A DNA stretch of 26,763 nucleotides from a virus, in IMG/VR virus record IMGVR_UViG_3300048927_000768, positions 1 through 26,763 of that record; one strand, written 5' to 3'. Shown in pieces: positions 1,907-7,408 of this stretch (its first letter is position 1; each line of letters starts with the position of its first letter). Under the pieces are notes generated by a model. It saw only the letters and a list, made by a program, of their open reading frames with translations. It was not told the DNA's origin and ran no database searches. A program made the translations under genes and the position numbers.

Positions 1907-3466
1907 CTAAGATACACGAATACTAACGGTCCTAGTCGCAGCATCCCACTCTACGTCCGCCCCCAGCCGTTCCGCAATCGTACGCGCCGGCAGATACGTT
2001 TTCCCATCCGTTATAAACCCTGCATCGGCTCCCGTCAATTTCTCGCCGTTTATGACGACATTGACCGAGGACAACACGGCCTCTCTCGTTACAATTGGAG
2101 CGGTGGGCTCCGGCGTTTCCGGTTTTCGTAGGCTGTAAACTTCCGCCAAGCCCGCCACAATAGCGGCCGCAACCTTCCGACGATACGAATCCGATTTCAG
2201 CAGCGCCGCCTCGGCCTTGTTCGTCATAAATCCGGCTTCGACGAGGATTGCCGGCATTGTCGTTTTTGCAATAACGGTAAAGTCCGCTCGCTTAACGGAC
2301 CTGTCTCGAAGTCCGGTGGACTTTATCAATGCCTTTTGCACGGCCGCCGCCAGTTTAACGGAAGTCGCACTCGCCACCGTTGCCGCAAACGTTTCAATCC
2401 CGTTCGCATCGTTCCAGTCGGTCCCGAACGCGTTGGCGTGAATTGATACGTAGACGTGAGCTTTAGCAGCATTGGCGCGCGCTACCCTTGTCGATAACGG
2501 AACGTCAATAGTGCCGGAGTCGTCGTGTATATACTTCGTACTCACCTTACCGCCGGCCGACATCGTATAACCCGTTAACTCCTCCGCAACATAGCGGGCG
2601 ACCACGGAATTAAAATGAAACTCGCGCATCGAATCGTCGGGGCACCGTTTGCCCGCCGTATTGGGACCGTGACCCGCGTCAATGGCTACGAGCAATTCCG
2701 TTTCAGGCGGCGTAGGCGCGGCCGGCTTTTTCACGACAACAAGCGCGCAGCCTGTCCCGCGCTCAGCGTTGCGGTTCGACGCTTGATTTACGGCCGCCTT
2801 GACGCTTCCACCAACATACATAATCGAACTCCCGCCGCCGTCGCCGTTAATTGCCGAAACGCAGCCGAGTTGGTCCCGAAATACCAACGCCAGCTCCTCG
2901 AACGTTAACCCAACGTCATAAGACGTCCTCCCGTCCGCCACGACGAAAACGACATCGCCATTACTGCGTATGCCGACCGCTGTCCGCTGGCTCCGGTCCG
3001 TTAACGATATCGACAGTTGATCCCGTTTGTGGGATTCCGCTACAACAACGTTACCGGCTCGCAGTAACTCCGGCGATCCTTGTACCGCGAAGTCTACGGC
3101 GGCAGGAGGCGACGCTGCAATTCCGTATTTACCGGACGGTTCCCGATACAACTCCGCTCGGCCGCGCGTCTTGTCCGTTTCATACGCGAGGGGGCTACCG
3201 GTCCAGTTGACGATAGCCGTACCGAGGAGCGCGCCGTCGGCCCCGTTAAAGTACGGAAAGTTTATCGCCAGCTCCGCGCCGGCTTCGCGCGCTAATACCG
3301 TAGGCTTTGCGCCGATTCGGGCAACCGCTTTAATATCGTACTCAGCGCTAGCTGATGGAATCACGACGTAACGGACATCCGTTGCTTTCCGTGTGTAATC
3401 GCCGTCGCAGCGGATAACCTTTCCGGCGGATACATATACGCGGATTTTCGTTACCGTTAGGCTCAT
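1907..3466 (-). CDS. Three-domain endolysin: phosphodiester-glycosidase-like + N-acetylmuramoyl-L-alanine amidase + stalk domain
   Basis: A 519-aa lysis protein. Residues about 1-245 match the NAGPA/phosphodiester glycosidase domain (NFPYFNG at 69-75; RTAVGI at 161; ADGR at 177; INGDGGGSS at 206-214). Residues about 257-445 are an Amidase_3 zinc amidase with ligands H266 (DAGHG), E282 and H343 (SIHAN) and catalytic E410 (LVEAGF). Residues about 466-518 are a copper-amine-oxidase-N-like stalk domain (TYLPARTIAERLGADVEWD), a likely wall-binding module. The amidase should cut the peptidoglycan amide bond; the role of the first domain is unknown here. No signal peptide, consistent with holin-dependent export. 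ATG at 3466 follows AAAGGGGAG, which overlaps the holin stop codon. It is the last gene of the late operon. Confidence 0.9.
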   Translation of the reverse strand: MSLTVTKIRVYVSAGKVIRCDGDYTRKATDVRYVVIPSASAEYDIKAVARIGAKPTVLAREAGAELAINFPYFNGADGALLGTAIVNWTGSPLAYETDKTRGRAELYREPSGKYGIAASPPAAVDFAVQGSPELLRAGNVVVAESHKRDQLSISLTDRSQRTAVGIRSNGDVVFVVADGRTSYDVGLTFEELALVFRDQLGCVSAINGDGGGSSIMYVGGSVKAAVNQASNRNAERGTGCALVVVKKPAAPTPPETELLVAIDAGHGPNTAGKRCPDDSMREFHFNSVVARYVAEELTGYTMSAGGKVSTKYIHDDSGTIDVPLSTRVARANAAKAHVYVSIHANAFGTDWNDANGIETFAATVASATSVKLAAAVQKALIKSTGLRDRSVKRADFTVIAKTTMPAILVEAGFMTNKAEAALLKSDSYRRKVAAAIVAGLAEVYSLRKPETPEPTAPIVTREAVLSSVNVVINGEKLTGADAGFITDGKTYLPARTIAERLGADVEWDAATRTVSIRVS

Positions 3467-3469
3467 ATG

Positions 3470-3901
3470 TTACTCCCCTTTCTTCGGACCGCCGGCGTCT
3501 CCCTTGCGCTTAAGGACGTCAATAATATCAACGAGCTTAGGCGGCAAAGGAACACGCGCCCGGCCCAGGTTTTCGAGGATACTCAGCAGCTCGTTAGCCA
3601 CGTAGAAATAGACTGCGGCCGTCATGGTGATTGCGTCGAGATCGAGCAAAATGTCGATACGGTGCGCCAGGATAATAACGAGTAATGCGAGCCCTTTTTT
3701 GCCAGCGCCGATACTCGCGATCGAGGACGATAAGCCGCGGCCCTCCGCACGGCTCGCGTAAATCCCCGTAATAACATCGATGACAAATGCAATCAAAAGA
3801 AACGTTAACGCCTCCGTCCAATGCCCGAATGCAAATCCGATTACTGCGCCAGCAATCGACGCCACGCTCCCGGCAGTTCCGTTAATAGTCACGAGATTCA
3901 T
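3470..3901 (-). CDS. Phage holin (TcdE/phage_holin_4 family)
   Basis: A 143-aa membrane protein that should form the inner-membrane hole or trigger release of the endolysin. It has hydrophobic segments at about 12-27, 31-48, 70-86 and 90-107. The family signature is visible: 'FVIDVITGIYAS', 'GKKGLALLVIILAHRID', 'AVYFYVANELLSILEN', then 'VPLPPKLVDIIDVLK' and a basic tail (KRKGDAGGPKKGE). This matches the PF05105 type of holin found next to amidases in Gram-positive phages. Its ATG overlaps the upstream stop codon (ATGA) and its stop abuts the endolysin Shine-Dalgarno, so the lysis genes are tightly coupled. Confidence 0.9.
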   Translation of the reverse strand: MNLVTINGTAGSVASIAGAVIGFAFGHWTEALTFLLIAFVIDVITGIYASRAEGRGLSSSIASIGAGKKGLALLVIILAHRIDILLDLDAITMTAAVYFYVANELLSILENLGRARVPLPPKLVDIIDVLKRKGDAGGPKKGE

Positions 3902-4092: not shown

Positions 4093-4168
4093 GTAAAAAC
4101 CTCCGTAAAAAGGAAATCGCTCCCACGTGTCGAATACAGACAACAAACGACAAAAGGAGCGTGTTAAA

Positions 4169-4795
4169 ATGCTGGATAAGCGCGAAAAAGCATCTGTCGT
4201 ATTTCAGGCAGGATTGCAGGCACTGCCTTACGTTGGCGGTTCTCTTTCCACGCTATTATTTGGATTTAAACAAGAAGTTCGGTTGAAACGCATCGAGACA
4301 TTTTATGAAGATGTTAAATCTAAATTAGAACAAATTGAGAGTGAAGTACCTCCTATTAGCCAGCACAATTCCGAAGAACTCATGTCCCTTATAGAACAAT
4401 TAAACGATTGTATTGAAGTCGAGCATCTTGAAGAAAAACGCGAGTTTTACAAAAATTACTTTATCCGGATTCTAAGATCCCCTGTTAGGCGAGATAATTA
4501 CGATCTAAGAAAACTATACCTGGACATACTAAAGACGCTAACATTGACCCAACTTATTATTTTTCAATTTTTAATCGAACAAGGAAAACCAATAATCGAT
4601 AAGTCAATCGTCATACATGGTACAAGCCCGGCCCTTATCCTTGGCTCTATTGAGCAACTTAAAATGCAGGGGATCGTGGATTCTAGGTTAAACGGAATAC
4701 AAATCGGGTATCAAAGCGAAATTACTTCTCACATCTCTGTGAGTCAACTTGGAGCCGCTTTCCATCGGTTTTGCATGAGCGATAGACTTTCTTAG
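4169..4795 (+). CDS. 208-aa PYVGG-type helical protein, counter-oriented moron, unknown function
   Basis: Start MLDKREK; ATG at 4169 is 9 nt after AAAAGGAG (4152-4159), better supported than an upstream in-frame TTG or ATG. Residues 8-58 hold 'FQAGLQALPYVGGSLSTLLFGF' followed by a charged helix (KQEVRLKRIETFYEDVKSKLEQIE). Then comes a helical region with 'EEKREFYKNYFIRIL' (88-102), and a C-terminal winged-helix-like part (about 124-200, ending HISVSQLGAAFHRFC). This layout recalls a loose set of accessory proteins in prophages and defence islands, some near the Abi-alpha/DUF4393 type; I cannot name the family firmly. It is on the strand opposite the late operon, is clearly more AT-rich, and its 3' end overlaps a minus-strand membrane ORF. 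It behaves like an inserted moron, possibly for exclusion or defence (inference). Confidence 0.78.
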   Translation: MLDKREKASVVFQAGLQALPYVGGSLSTLLFGFKQEVRLKRIETFYEDVKSKLEQIESEVPPISQHNSEELMSLIEQLNDCIEVEHLEEKREFYKNYFIRILRSPVRRDNYDLRKLYLDILKTLTLTQLIIFQFLIEQGKPIIDKSIVIHGTSPALILGSIEQLKMQGIVDSRLNGIQIGYQSEITSHISVSQLGAAFHRFCMSDRLS

Positions 4796-4907
4796 GCACT
4801 CCGCCAGCGAAGATTATTAAGATTGAAAAAGTTACCGCCCACACCCACCAATACTTAATAAATAGCTGGCCGGGCGTCAAGTTGATCAAATCCGATAGAA
4901 ACGTCAT
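4722..4907 (-). CDS. 61-aa single-helix membrane protein, possibly truncated
   Basis: A short ORF (start MTFLSDLINLTPGQLF) with one strong hydrophobic stretch, 'YWWVWAVTFSILIIFAG' at about 19-35, and a basic C-terminus. GGAGG lies 14 nt before the ATG, longer than usual. Its position in the lysis region suggests an accessory lysis or membrane protein. The last ~24 codons (4722-4795) are antisense to the end of the plus-strand gene. This suggests the original C-terminus was replaced when that gene was inserted, so this may be a decayed remnant. No family recognised. Confidence 0.45.
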   Translation of the reverse strand: MTFLSDLINLTPGQLFIKYWWVWAVTFSILIIFAGGVPKKVYRSCKTDGKRLQVDSQRCEK

Positions 4908-4936: not shown

Positions 4937-4966
4937 AAAAAGCCCGGACCAGTTACGGTCGGGCTT
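4937..4966 (-). terminator. Intrinsic terminator downstream of the stalk-domain gene
   Basis: Read on the minus strand, AGCCCGACC and GGTCCGGGCT pair with one bulged C around a short loop, then run into TTTTT (complement of 4937-4941). It lies about 35 nt after the stop codon of the secreted stalk-domain gene. It separates that gene, and the late operon behind it, from the lysis block. Confidence 0.75.
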
Positions 4967-5000
4967 CGTTAACGTTGCGTATTAATTTTCAAGCACGGAA

Positions 5001-5516
5001 TTATTTCGTTGCTTCAGCGGCGGCGAGTTCGGCTTCGAGCGTTGCGATTTCTGCTTCGTATTCGGCGATACGCTTCTTCACCTTTTCGATTTCCGCTTTA
5101 TAGAGCAAAACAGCTTCCGACGAGGAATCCTTTTCTTGTTTTATAAGAGTCTCATACGCAGCAATAGCGTTATTACTACTATCTACTAGTGTTTTTACTA
5201 CGCTGATCCTATCTTTTATAACTTCAGGTCTTGATGACTCGCTTATCCCCGCCGCCTCCTTCGTCTCAAGGAACACCTTGCCCGGCTCGAAATCGACGTC
5301 CATACCGGCAATTTCCGCAATTTGACGTACAGGGCCGTAGCTGTTTCCGTTAATAATCGGGACTTCGCCGATAACTTTTCCGTCAACATGAAGCTCCCAA
5401 ACGCTGCCTACCTTCGTCCCTACGAGCTGCTTTACTTCCGCTGCGATTGCGGATCCTGCCGTCATTACGACCGCGCCCACAAGTGTTCCCGCTATAAAAT
5501 ACTTCATCTTTTTCAT
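5001..5516 (-). CDS. Secreted stalk-domain protein with C-terminal coiled coil
   Basis: 171 aa from ATG at 5516, chosen for the Shine-Dalgarno GGAGGGGG 6 nt upstream; a 10-residue longer form lacks one. MKKMKYFIAGTLVGAVVMTAGSAIAAE is a typical signal peptide with likely cleavage after A25 (AIA|AE). Residues about 38-85 are a copper-amine-oxidase-N-like stalk domain (VDGKVIGEVPIINGNSYGPVRQIAEIAGMDVDFEPGK), and 137-170 is a heptad-rich coiled coil (AEIEKVKKRIAEYEAEIATLEAEL). It should be exported to the cell surface. Its own -10 element (5545-5550) and terminator (4937-4966) mark it as a moron expressed by the lysogen or independently of late control. The same domain type ends the phage endolysin. 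Function unknown; wall association is inferred. Confidence 0.82.
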   Translation of the reverse strand: MKKMKYFIAGTLVGAVVMTAGSAIAAEVKQLVGTKVGSVWELHVDGKVIGEVPIINGNSYGPVRQIAEIAGMDVDFEPGKVFLETKEAAGISESSRPEVIKDRISVVKTLVDSSNNAIAAYETLIKQEKDSSSEAVLLYKAEIEKVKKRIAEYEAEIATLEAELAAAEATK

Positions 5517-5544
5517 AACGTTCCCCCTCCGGTTGTTTGCCACC

Positions 5545-5550
5545 ATTATA
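5545..5550 (-). promoter_or_regulatory. Promoter -10 element for the stalk-domain moron
   Basis: On the minus strand a perfect TATAAT lies 28 nt before the ATG at 5516, leaving room for a short leader with the GGAGGGGG site. No recognisable -35 is present at 17±1 nt, so the promoter is weak or activator-dependent. It lies in the 71-nt gap after the tail endopeptidase gene. Confidence 0.45.
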
Positions 5551-5587
5551 CAATAGTTACGCCGCCCGGAGGAGGTAGTTTCGTAGA

Positions 5588-7408
5588 TTAGCCGCCGAGC
5601 GCGGAGATACGGGAACTAAGCGCGCTCAGCTCTGCCCGCAGTCCAGTTACCCGTTCGATAGTAAGTCCAATTATTGTCGCGGAAAGCCCAAACTCAACCC
5701 CGCCGTAAAAAGACGCAAATCCGTAGAAATTTTGGTGAGCCATCGCGTTAATGACTCCACCTGCAATTCCAAGTGTTAGTGGGCCGCCGCGTGGAGTCCA
5801 CAATACCCCTCCGTTACTCTGCCCTGATAACTGCAAACTTGCGGTCGGATGGTTATCTACGTAAAAGTCTAACGTCGAATACCCGCTTGTCATACGAATA
5901 AAATCGCCGTTTGCCGTTGTCTGAATAGTAGCGCCCGTTATCGTACCGCCGACAATAACCGTACCCAAAACGCTACTCCCGATAATTGTCCCGCCAATAA
6001 TCTGCCCGGACCCGGACAAGCTCCCCGTATAGATCGACCAGCCGCCAATCGTGCCGGACAATGCCGTAATATGCCCCGTAAAGTTCCCGTTCGCGGCCTG
6101 CAATGTACCGCTGAAATAAGCGTTCCCCGTTGCGCTATCCTGCCATATCGTCCGGACGCCGGACTTGTTAAACAACGCTAATCCGTACTCGCCCGGAGCC
6201 GTTTGACCTAACCGTACCATCGTCCGGTTCATGTCGTCACTGACCCGCATACCGAATCCGTCGACCAGCGTTACCGAATCGTCATACTTAACGCCTTTGA
6301 GGACGGCATTCTTCGACGTATACGTGATCGCCCGTTTCGATCCGACCGTCGCCTGGAACACGTAATCGGCCGTTTTCATTTCGCGGAAATTGGCGAGGAC
6401 GACGCGGGCCCGGCGCGGTTCAAACGGATAGCGTTCATACTCCGTCACGCGCGCATCAAACCGGTAGCCCATCGACTCGTCAATGATCGTTACCGTATCG
6501 CCGACGTCGCGGATCGCCTCGGCCCGGAAGTCGTCGTCAACCTTTTCGAGTTCCACGAAATCGACTTCGTAGGATACTTTCGGCAGCTCGACCGTTTTAA
6601 GATACTTCTGCATCTCCGCTAAAAGCCGGGCTTGATCGTCGATTTCCGCGAACTCGACGGAGCCTTCGTAAATATGGCCGGCGTCGATATATTCCGAGTC
6701 GATATACTTAACGGCGTGCCCCGGCAGTCCTTCGATAGTGAGCCCGTTTTTACCGTAACCGTACAGCCGGGTAATACGCTCCATATCGTGGCTTTTGCGC
6801 GTAATCCCCGTCAGATTTTTCCGATAACGTATCTCGACGCCATAGTTCCCGCCGCGCCGCGTCGTCAACGTAATTTGCGTATTGTTGTACGCCAACTCGC
6901 CGTTGTAAAGCGTCCGAACTTCGCCGAGCAAGCCAAATTTCCGCTTTTCGCCCCATTCGAATATGTCATCGGCCGCAAAAGAGCCCTCCACCGCGAAAGT
7001 GAAGGGCGTGCCATTTGCTATTAATCCGAGCTGATACGTCGGCGGTTGCGCTGCTAAAAAGTCTACGTAATCATCGAGATAATACCGATTAAGCTCGAAC
7101 GCTAAATGATGCGCCTCGACCCGTTTATATACGCGAAGCCCGCGCCGCTCCTCGTTGACCGATTTAATGACGAAATATTGTCCAGCTACGCCTATGTCGG
7201 TCATATCGCCGGGGAATCGGACCTCGGCGGCTTCCTTTATCGCGTCATAGCGGCTTTTATCGTCCGGCAGCCGCGGGTACGAAAAGGTAACGAAAAATTG
7301 CCCGTTTAACGTCTCCTTTACGCACACGTCCGTAGCCGCCGCGAGAATCTGCCGGGCCGATACTCCGTTGATGACGGAGTGTATTTCGAGTCTACTGCGT
7401 AATTTCAC
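5588..7408 (-). CDS. Tail endopeptidase / tail spike (Prophage_tail family)
   Basis: A 606-aa tail-tip protein. The N-terminal ~340 residues match the Prophage_tail/tail-associated lysin-like family (PF06605), the baseplate hub gp27-type fold: 'NGQFFVTFSYP', 'GQYFVIKSVNEER', 'VEAHHLAFELNRYYLDD', 'ERITRLYGYGKN', 'GDTVTIIDESMGYRFDARVTEYERYPFEP'. The rest is fibre-like, with G/T/I-rich repeats (about 445-500, GGTIIGSSVLGTVIVGGTITGAT) and a short C-terminal coiled coil (VTGLRAELSALSSRISAL) for trimerisation. GTG at 7408 is preceded by AAGGAGG, which overlaps the upstream stop codon. It should dock on the distal tail protein and help contact or open the cell wall. I see no catalytic residues that prove peptidase activity. 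Confidence 0.85.
   Translation of the reverse strand: MKLRSRLEIHSVINGVSARQILAAATDVCVKETLNGQFFVTFSYPRLPDDKSRYDAIKEAAEVRFPGDMTDIGVAGQYFVIKSVNEERRGLRVYKRVEAHHLAFELNRYYLDDYVDFLAAQPPTYQLGLIANGTPFTFAVEGSFAADDIFEWGEKRKFGLLGEVRTLYNGELAYNNTQITLTTRRGGNYGVEIRYRKNLTGITRKSHDMERITRLYGYGKNGLTIEGLPGHAVKYIDSEYIDAGHIYEGSVEFAEIDDQARLLAEMQKYLKTVELPKVSYEVDFVELEKVDDDFRAEAIRDVGDTVTIIDESMGYRFDARVTEYERYPFEPRRARVVLANFREMKTADYVFQATVGSKRAITYTSKNAVLKGVKYDDSVTLVDGFGMRVSDDMNRTMVRLGQTAPGEYGLALFNKSGVRTIWQDSATGNAYFSGTLQAANGNFTGHITALSGTIGGWSIYTGSLSGSGQIIGGTIIGSSVLGTVIVGGTITGATIQTTANGDFIRMTSGYSTLDFYVDNHPTASLQLSGQSNGGVLWTPRGGPLTLGIAGGVINAMAHQNFYGFASFYGGVEFGLSATIIGLTIERVTGLRAELSALSSRISALGG

Follow-up and report, generated by a model that had tools for sequence, protein, structure and literature searches.

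A convergent prophage gene pair encodes an apparent remote relative of Abi-alpha and a small single-helix membrane protein that is a candidate for its inhibitor

Results

An AT-rich gene runs against the late genes and overlaps a small membrane protein gene tail to tail

The DNA analyzed here, called the window, is the whole of a 26.8-kb virus record (IMGVR_UViG_3300048927_000768; 26,763 nt). Its minus strand carries recognized late genes (those of a 606-aa tail protein, a holin, and an amidase) around a plus-strand gene, the large gene, which converges on a minus-strand ORF, the small gene. The features of the locus are as follows.

3470 to 3901, minus strand: holin gene (Phage_holin_4_1, Pfam scan), downstream on the late strand
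4154 to 4159, plus strand: AAGGAG, the large gene's ribosome site, 9 nt upstream of the ATG at 4169
4169 to 4795, plus strand: large gene, 208-aa putative Abi-alpha-like defense protein (ORF, structural model, and profile comparison)
4722 to 4795, no strand assigned: tail-to-tail overlap of the large and small genes, 74 nt or about 24 codons
4722 to 4907, minus strand: small gene, encoding a 61-aa single-TM protein; it lies on the late (lytic) strand and converges on the large gene
4722 to 4778, minus strand: stop codon and last 18 codons of the small gene, a C-terminal extension that lies antisense to the large gene's end and that the 42-aa relatives lack
4779 to 4907, minus strand: conserved core of the small protein, about 43 aa, LINLTPGQLFIKYWWVW (alignments)
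4947 to 4960, minus strand: weak terminator-like hairpin with a T run, between a 181-aa late gene and the small gene
5588 to 7408, minus strand: 606-aa tail protein gene, its product 64% identical over 437 aa to that of locus L015

The initial annotation had described the large gene as an AT-rich moron that is oriented against the late operon, has its own ribosome site, and overlaps a 61-aa single-helix ORF on the minus strand, and each of these points held. The G + C content of the large gene is 39.1% compared with 53.0% for the window; of 523 sliding windows 627 nt long, including those that overlap the large gene, 10 were as low or lower. The ORF ends with the stop codon at 4795 and reads 208 aa from the ATG at 4169 or 222 aa from a GTG at 4127. 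Because homologues of the large protein were found in several phyla and its relatives are under purifying selection (pN/pS 0.100/0.612 and 0.011/0.063 in two pairs), the large gene is more than a chance ORF. The small protein contains one hydrophobic stretch of TM length and is likewise under purifying selection (pN/pS 0.039/0.229, pooled over pairs of eight sequences). It had no match at E ≤ 1 in Pfam, NCBIfam, or PADLOC; its best E value was 0.0095 against PHROGs, and its matches in 50,697 phage records were weak, with a best E value of 0.1.

It had also been proposed that late transcription would produce RNA antisense to the large gene and thereby switch between lysogeny and lytic growth. 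The geometry makes such a switch plausible, since two published prophage defense pairs are reported to use it (PMC11087260, PMC11364771), while the scan of the locus for promoters gave none above chance (2 promoter-like sites, with 3.1 expected). Terminator-like sites were no commoner than chance, at 4 between 3300 and 5700 compared with a mean of 2.9 in shuffled sequences.

Two other genes of the window were recorded. The protein at the endolysin position (1907 to 3466, minus strand) has three domains, a phosphodiester glycosidase (NAGPA), an Amidase_3, and a copper amine oxidase N-terminal domain. At 1118 to 1654 on the plus strand, adjoining the integrase, a gene of 38% G + C encodes a 178-aa membrane protein that matched PADLOC models (PycTM, E 2.5e-7; a 2TM effector model, E 9.6e-5) and is possibly a second defense moron.

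The small ORF of the window is extended rather than truncated

According to the initial annotation, the large gene had inserted recently into a longer late membrane gene and replaced its natural end. This reading draws on the last 18 codons of the small ORF, which are antisense of the large gene and have no counterpart in the 42-aa relatives. We searched viral contigs for relatives of the small gene with the first 43 residues of the window protein. With starts set nearest the profile start, the 29 other distinct members measured 37 to 58 aa, the 61 aa of the window being the longest. Where no large gene was adjacent within the locus DNA examined, the small protein was 37 to 53 aa long, and in six loci, all without an intact large gene adjoining, it was 42 aa (L002, L004, L006, L008, L015, and L025). 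At L015, whose tail protein is the closest to the 606-aa protein of the window among five loci compared, the 42-aa gene lies directly behind the tail gene, and no large gene was present within the 7.3-kb locus.

The comparison with relatives lacking the large gene thus yielded no longer membrane protein, and the core was found at the shorter length. Since relatives without an adjoining large gene reach only 37 to 53 aa and none exceeds 61 aa, the window ORF, which surpasses the 42-aa core by 18 to 19 codons, is extended and not cut. Insertion with truncation of the small gene was dropped because of the shorter relatives, L015, and the presence/absence loci described below; together with the age of the pairing, they make it most improbable.

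The large and small genes form a conserved convergent module

Relatives of the large protein were gathered with one sequence and with profiles. The single-sequence scan of viral contigs gave no match, and tblastn with two members (those of the window and of L064) found none in 50,697 phage records. When all six-frame ORFs of the large-gene loci were scanned with the small profile, position being ignored, most of the loci had their match at the large gene's 3' end. A convergent small gene lay within −120 to +150 nt of 20 of the 23 full-length large ORFs in 24 viral loci retrieved with the large-protein profile, compared with none of the 192 other ORFs of at least 100 aa in those loci. For this count the 24 loci were not dereplicated, the large profile (A1) was built partly from paired loci, and the small profile (A4) drew in part on small ORFs from the loci counted, which had first been found by an iterated profile blind to position. 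The misses were L040, L050, and L051; the large ORF of L059 is cut at the contig end and was not counted. After near-identical large proteins (identical or one residue apart) were merged by eye, 11 of 13 full-length ORFs had a partner.

Over all sources, 19 pairs were assembled, with intergenic gaps from −74 to +39 nt; since these include loci found via the small gene, the pairing rate rests on the 24-locus control count. The distances among the large proteins correlated with those among the small proteins in the 19 pairs (Mantel r = 0.62, p = 5e-5) and in 17 pairs with near-duplicates removed (r = 0.46, p = 1e-4); in the 13 pairs left without L003, L005, L009, L011, L052, and L069, r was 0.31 (p = 0.057). 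The paired large proteins reach down to 22% identity with that of the window, and because the pairing recurs over this range in 19 loci, it is old.

The pair was found in Paenibacillus senegalensis, Bacillus sp. RO2, Oceanobacillus damuensis, and Lactiplantibacillus fabifermentans, as well as in a Pediococcus inopinatus plasmid (NZ_CP104770.1) whose small ORF is missing from the PLSDB gene table. Among nine genome loci with the large gene, the small gene was present in four, that is, in four of five from Firmicutes and in none of the four others. Both genes are rare in the genomes sampled. The class of G004 (398 genomes, G004 included) contained 15 large-gene matches at E ≤ 0.001, three of them strong (G004, G248, and G313 with a broken frame), and five small-gene matches, one of them strong (G004). 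In the family of G009 (251 genomes, G009 included), there were three large-gene matches at E ≤ 1e-10 (G009, G008, and G571) and two small-gene matches at E ≤ 1e-4 (G009 and G510), and the family of G001 (104 genomes, G001 included) gave one of each at the same locus.

Each gene also occurs without the other

In a group of near-identical prophages, the small protein is 42 aa long next to the large gene in L003 and L005 and 40 aa long in L009. The DNA of L002, L004, L006, and L008 matches that of paired loci until shortly after the stop codon of the small gene, and the identity resumes just upstream of the large start codon. L025 has an intact small gene and, next to it, a remnant of the large gene 31 codons long. 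These breaks in identity and the remnant reveal that the large gene comes or goes in this group while the small gene stays. For L025 the remnant indicates loss; the alignments of the other four loci are equally compatible with loss and with a large gene never gained.

The neighbors of the small gene change between loci (L002, L004, L006, L008, L025, and L030), so that its flank looks like a cargo-exchange site; they include an HsdR_N-type protein in L002 and, read by eye, lipoprotein-like and other membrane proteins.

Small genes without a large gene in the locus DNA examined were also found in late or lysis regions (after an endolysin gene in L013, and in L015 and L032 to L036), and the small gene may therefore have a function of its own. 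The lone small gene of L013 is convergent with a gene (5153 to 5602) that joins a C-terminal piece of Cas_Csd1 to an HTH domain. Conversely, the large gene occurs without the small one in L050/L051/L068, L040, and L080. In L050, L051, and L068 there is no intact small ORF, and the antisense frame resembles, by eye, a decayed small gene; in L068 the large gene lies just before an integrase-like gene.

These loci bear on the idea of a toxin-antitoxin system in which the small membrane peptide acts as the toxin, with the large protein (or its mRNA) serving as an antitoxin that stabilizes the prophage. Type I toxin peptides are similar in size and have a single helix, and antisense-regulated toxins show the same kind of convergent overlap. 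An orphan toxin should be lost, however, and small genes stay intact without an adjoining large gene, as large genes exist without a small one. We therefore consider a toxin-antitoxin system quite improbable.

Two mirror-image layouts follow one strand rule

When the neighbors were read, the 19 pairs fell into two layouts. In 10 pairs, the small gene pointed the same way as neighboring lytic genes (late or other), the large gene pointing the other way (the window, L014/L056, L016/L061, L029, L031, L038, L041, L064, L065, and L070). The small gene follows an endolysin gene in L061 and L064, and the pair lies inside a tail operon in L029, L031, and L070. In the nine other pairs (L003, L005, L009, L011, L042, L048, L049, L052, and L069), the large gene was codirectional with a repressor-type gene, and with the integrase where the contig reaches it, and the small gene was antisense. 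The neighbors were mostly named by eye, those of L038 and L041 being the least sure. Taken together, the two mirror-image layouts obey one rule that applies to all 19 pairs: the small gene is read in the lytic direction or against the repressor operon, with the large gene being read the other way.

This rule is relevant to whether the small gene is an ordinary late or lysis membrane protein gene beside which the large gene has docked as a moron, the two being linked by antisense transcription only. The small-only copies in the late regions of L013, L015, and L032 to L036 favor this view, but in nine pairs the small gene is antisense in a repressor module, outside any lysis module, and the distances among the large proteins are correlated with those among the small ones, if only weakly once one group is set aside. 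We regard this alternative as unlikely.

The large protein appears to be a remote relative of Abi-alpha

The AlphaFold model of the large protein (22-row alignment) had a pLDDT of 87 and a pTM of 0.78, with lower values of 60 to 63 for the first 30 residues. It shows, in order, a short N-terminal helix, a PxVGG turn, a 33-residue helix (residues 23 to 55), further helices, and a C-terminal winged helix, so that the helical middle and winged-helix-like C terminus read from the sequence earlier were recovered in the prediction. The only likeness shown by VIA-align was to the widespread MarR/HxlR winged helix (Z about 10.6), with most rows falling within residues 73 to 208, and it says nothing about function. 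Foldseek searches of the model against PDB and BFVD gave no match at E ≤ 0.001, and the best E value of an HMM search of PDB sequences was 0.053.

Among sequence families, phrog_11520, a phage family without a name, was matched by 13 of 22 members of the large family (best E 4.4e-14; 2.1e-5 and 2.5e-5 for the window protein in two scans). The window protein itself had no match in Pfam at E ≤ 5 and none in NCBIfam or PADLOC at E ≤ 1. Abi_alpha was the Pfam family matched by the most members (5 of 14, best E 4.2e-4), a match that is weak in itself because Mer2, an unrelated family, reached 5.2e-4 with two members in the same scan. HHalign of the large family against Abi-alpha gave a probability of 85.7 in local mode and 87.8 in global mode (pairwise E 5.4e-6 and 3.8e-7), compared with at most 19.5 for MarR and 10.0 for PadR, the inputs being four Abi-alpha, 11 MarR, and 10 PadR sequences. 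At the profile level, the large protein thus appears to be a remote relative of Abi-alpha, above other winged-helix families.

Outside prophages, the large gene was found in settings typical of defense genes. It lies in an integron array in L062, a gammaproteobacterial MAG (4983 to 5612; integron integrase, E 2e-136), and in another in L063, from Xanthomonas nasturtii (4986 to 5615), beside ilvD and with an integrase fragment (E 4.6e-19). Just behind the large gene of L062 is a repeat of about 55 to 60 bp that matches six further places in L063, including the ends of neighboring ORFs, and that we take to be an attC site. In L067, a Flammeovirgaceae MAG, the large gene is followed by genes for an Mrr-like nuclease and for an MBL-fold protein that partially matches defense models (RTasMBL, 7.2e-13; Avs1a, 1.3e-6), and in L128 a divergent homologue (1468 to 2091) ends 3 bp before a type III restriction (Res) gene. 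The resemblance to proteins of prophages and defense islands that had been suggested initially is thus borne out by the remote Abi-alpha homology and by the integron, Mrr-like, and type III restriction neighbors. No small gene adjoins the large gene in L062, L063, L067, or L128, which would be expected if the small gene were needed only where the defense is borne by a prophage. NYN-domain genes were seen near the large gene in two unrelated genomes (L061, 3709 to 4740; L067, 2850 to 3524).

A further alternative is a two-component abortive infection system in which the small protein is a membrane effector or trigger, and the large protein senses or activates it to open the membrane. The TM-length stretch of the small protein, the action of Abi-alpha on lysis, and the pairing in 20 of 23 ORFs agree with such an effector. 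On the other hand, the two genes lie on opposite strands and, judged by their neighbors in the 19 pairs, belong to opposite expression programs, which is unusual for partners that act together; large-gene homologues stand alone in integron arrays and beside restriction-type genes, and the small gene also occurs alone. An effector role of the small protein is, in our judgment, improbable.

Discussion

The results reported above show that a large and a small gene recur as a tail-to-tail pair, that both proteins are under purifying selection, and that one strand rule governs the pairs. We hypothesize, with the balance of the evidence just in its favor, that the pair is a prophage module made up of an Abi-alpha-like lysogen defense protein and a small membrane protein that neutralizes it in the prophage's own lytic growth. 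The large gene would be expressed in the lysogen and, by analogy with Abi-alpha, its product would cause premature lysis of cells that another phage has infected. Encoded on the lytic strand, the single-helix membrane protein would be the most likely cognate inhibitor, made as its own prophage enters the lytic cycle so that the timing of its own lysis is not spoiled, and converging transcription might reinforce the switch between lysogeny and lysis.

More tentatively, and against our expectation on balance, a wider version may apply. Phages would be guarded against a new Abi-alpha-like lysis-timing defense by membrane inhibitors of a new single-helix family (about 40 aa, LTPGQLFIKYWW), the two genes being set tail to tail in prophages in one of two mirror-image layouts. 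Phages with the small gene only would then use it as counter-defense, and the lone defense gene would move via integron arrays and restriction loci, settings that call for no inhibitor.

A prophage with a defense gene must avoid killing itself on induction, and the solutions described in the literature cited here are Tha/Ith, Tai/Ati, and the DNA element of BstA. No description of the present pair was found in the open-licence PMC literature, among the matches listed. The pair would also offer a way into the question of how early lysis is brought about by Abi-alpha-type proteins, the tiny membrane partner pointing to a membrane or holin step.

Abi-alpha (EF2833; Pfam PF14337, formerly DUF4393; phrog_2232) is a prophage-borne abortive-infection protein of Enterococcus faecalis with which phage-infected cells are reported to lyse about 10 min early; the mechanism was left open in that report, whose authors speculate on the holin or the membrane potential (PMC6356687). 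The large protein resembles Abi-alpha in being prophage-borne in Gram-positives, in its similar size, and in remote profile homology over the helical middle and the winged-helix end. It differs in its PHROG match, which is to phrog_11520, and because the window protein has no Pfam match at the threshold given above, we do not file it as Abi-alpha. None of four true Abi-alpha loci had a convincing small gene beside it (best E 0.0025, inside a 227-aa protein).

In Staphylococcus aureus phage 80alpha, Tha, a HEPN RNase, is made from the repressor operon and is inhibited after induction by Ith, the product of a small antisense gene that was formerly taken for an excisionase (PMC11087260). Our nine repressor-module pairs share this layout of a repressor operon with a defense gene and a small antisense gene. 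The proteins differ, the small partner here being a single-TM protein unlike the once-presumed excisionase Ith; the HEPN motif R-x4-6-H occurs in 5 of 22 large proteins and not in that of the window, and only the near relatives L052 and L069 have it in a shared place. Late-expressed ith was reported to be insufficient against Tha (PMC11087260), whereas a protein that acts on lysis timing could presumably be countered late.

In phi80, the late operon contains taiEcA in antisense orientation as well as atiEcA, which counters it (PMC11364771). The window has this layout, a putative defense gene antisense in the late operon with its partner in that operon, with the difference that the phi80 genes gp52/gp51, which we took as Orf63/Orf64 by our own mapping, overlap head to head and those of the window tail to tail. 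Neither gp52 nor gp51 showed similarity to the large or small family; gp52 scored below zero against the large profile (E 0.13), with an HHalign probability of 0.1 for the TaiEcA version only. Homology of the large protein to Tha or Tai was dropped because of this lack of similarity to gp52 and of a conserved HEPN motif. BstA is a prophage-encoded abortive infection protein with cognate self-immunity (PMC8585504) that is described as a DNA element (PMC11087260), whereas a protein partner is predicted here.

The window genes adjoin on opposite strands, as do those of 20 of the 23 large-profile ORFs, an arrangement expected of a defense/inhibitor pair in a noncontiguous operon. The pair thus appears to have the geometry of Tha/Ith and Tai/Ati with proteins that look unrelated to them. 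The authors of the Tai study predicted more such defense/inhibitor pairs (PMC11364771), and the pair described here is a candidate for one, with proteins different from those described, in several bacterial hosts, and in two mirror-image layouts.
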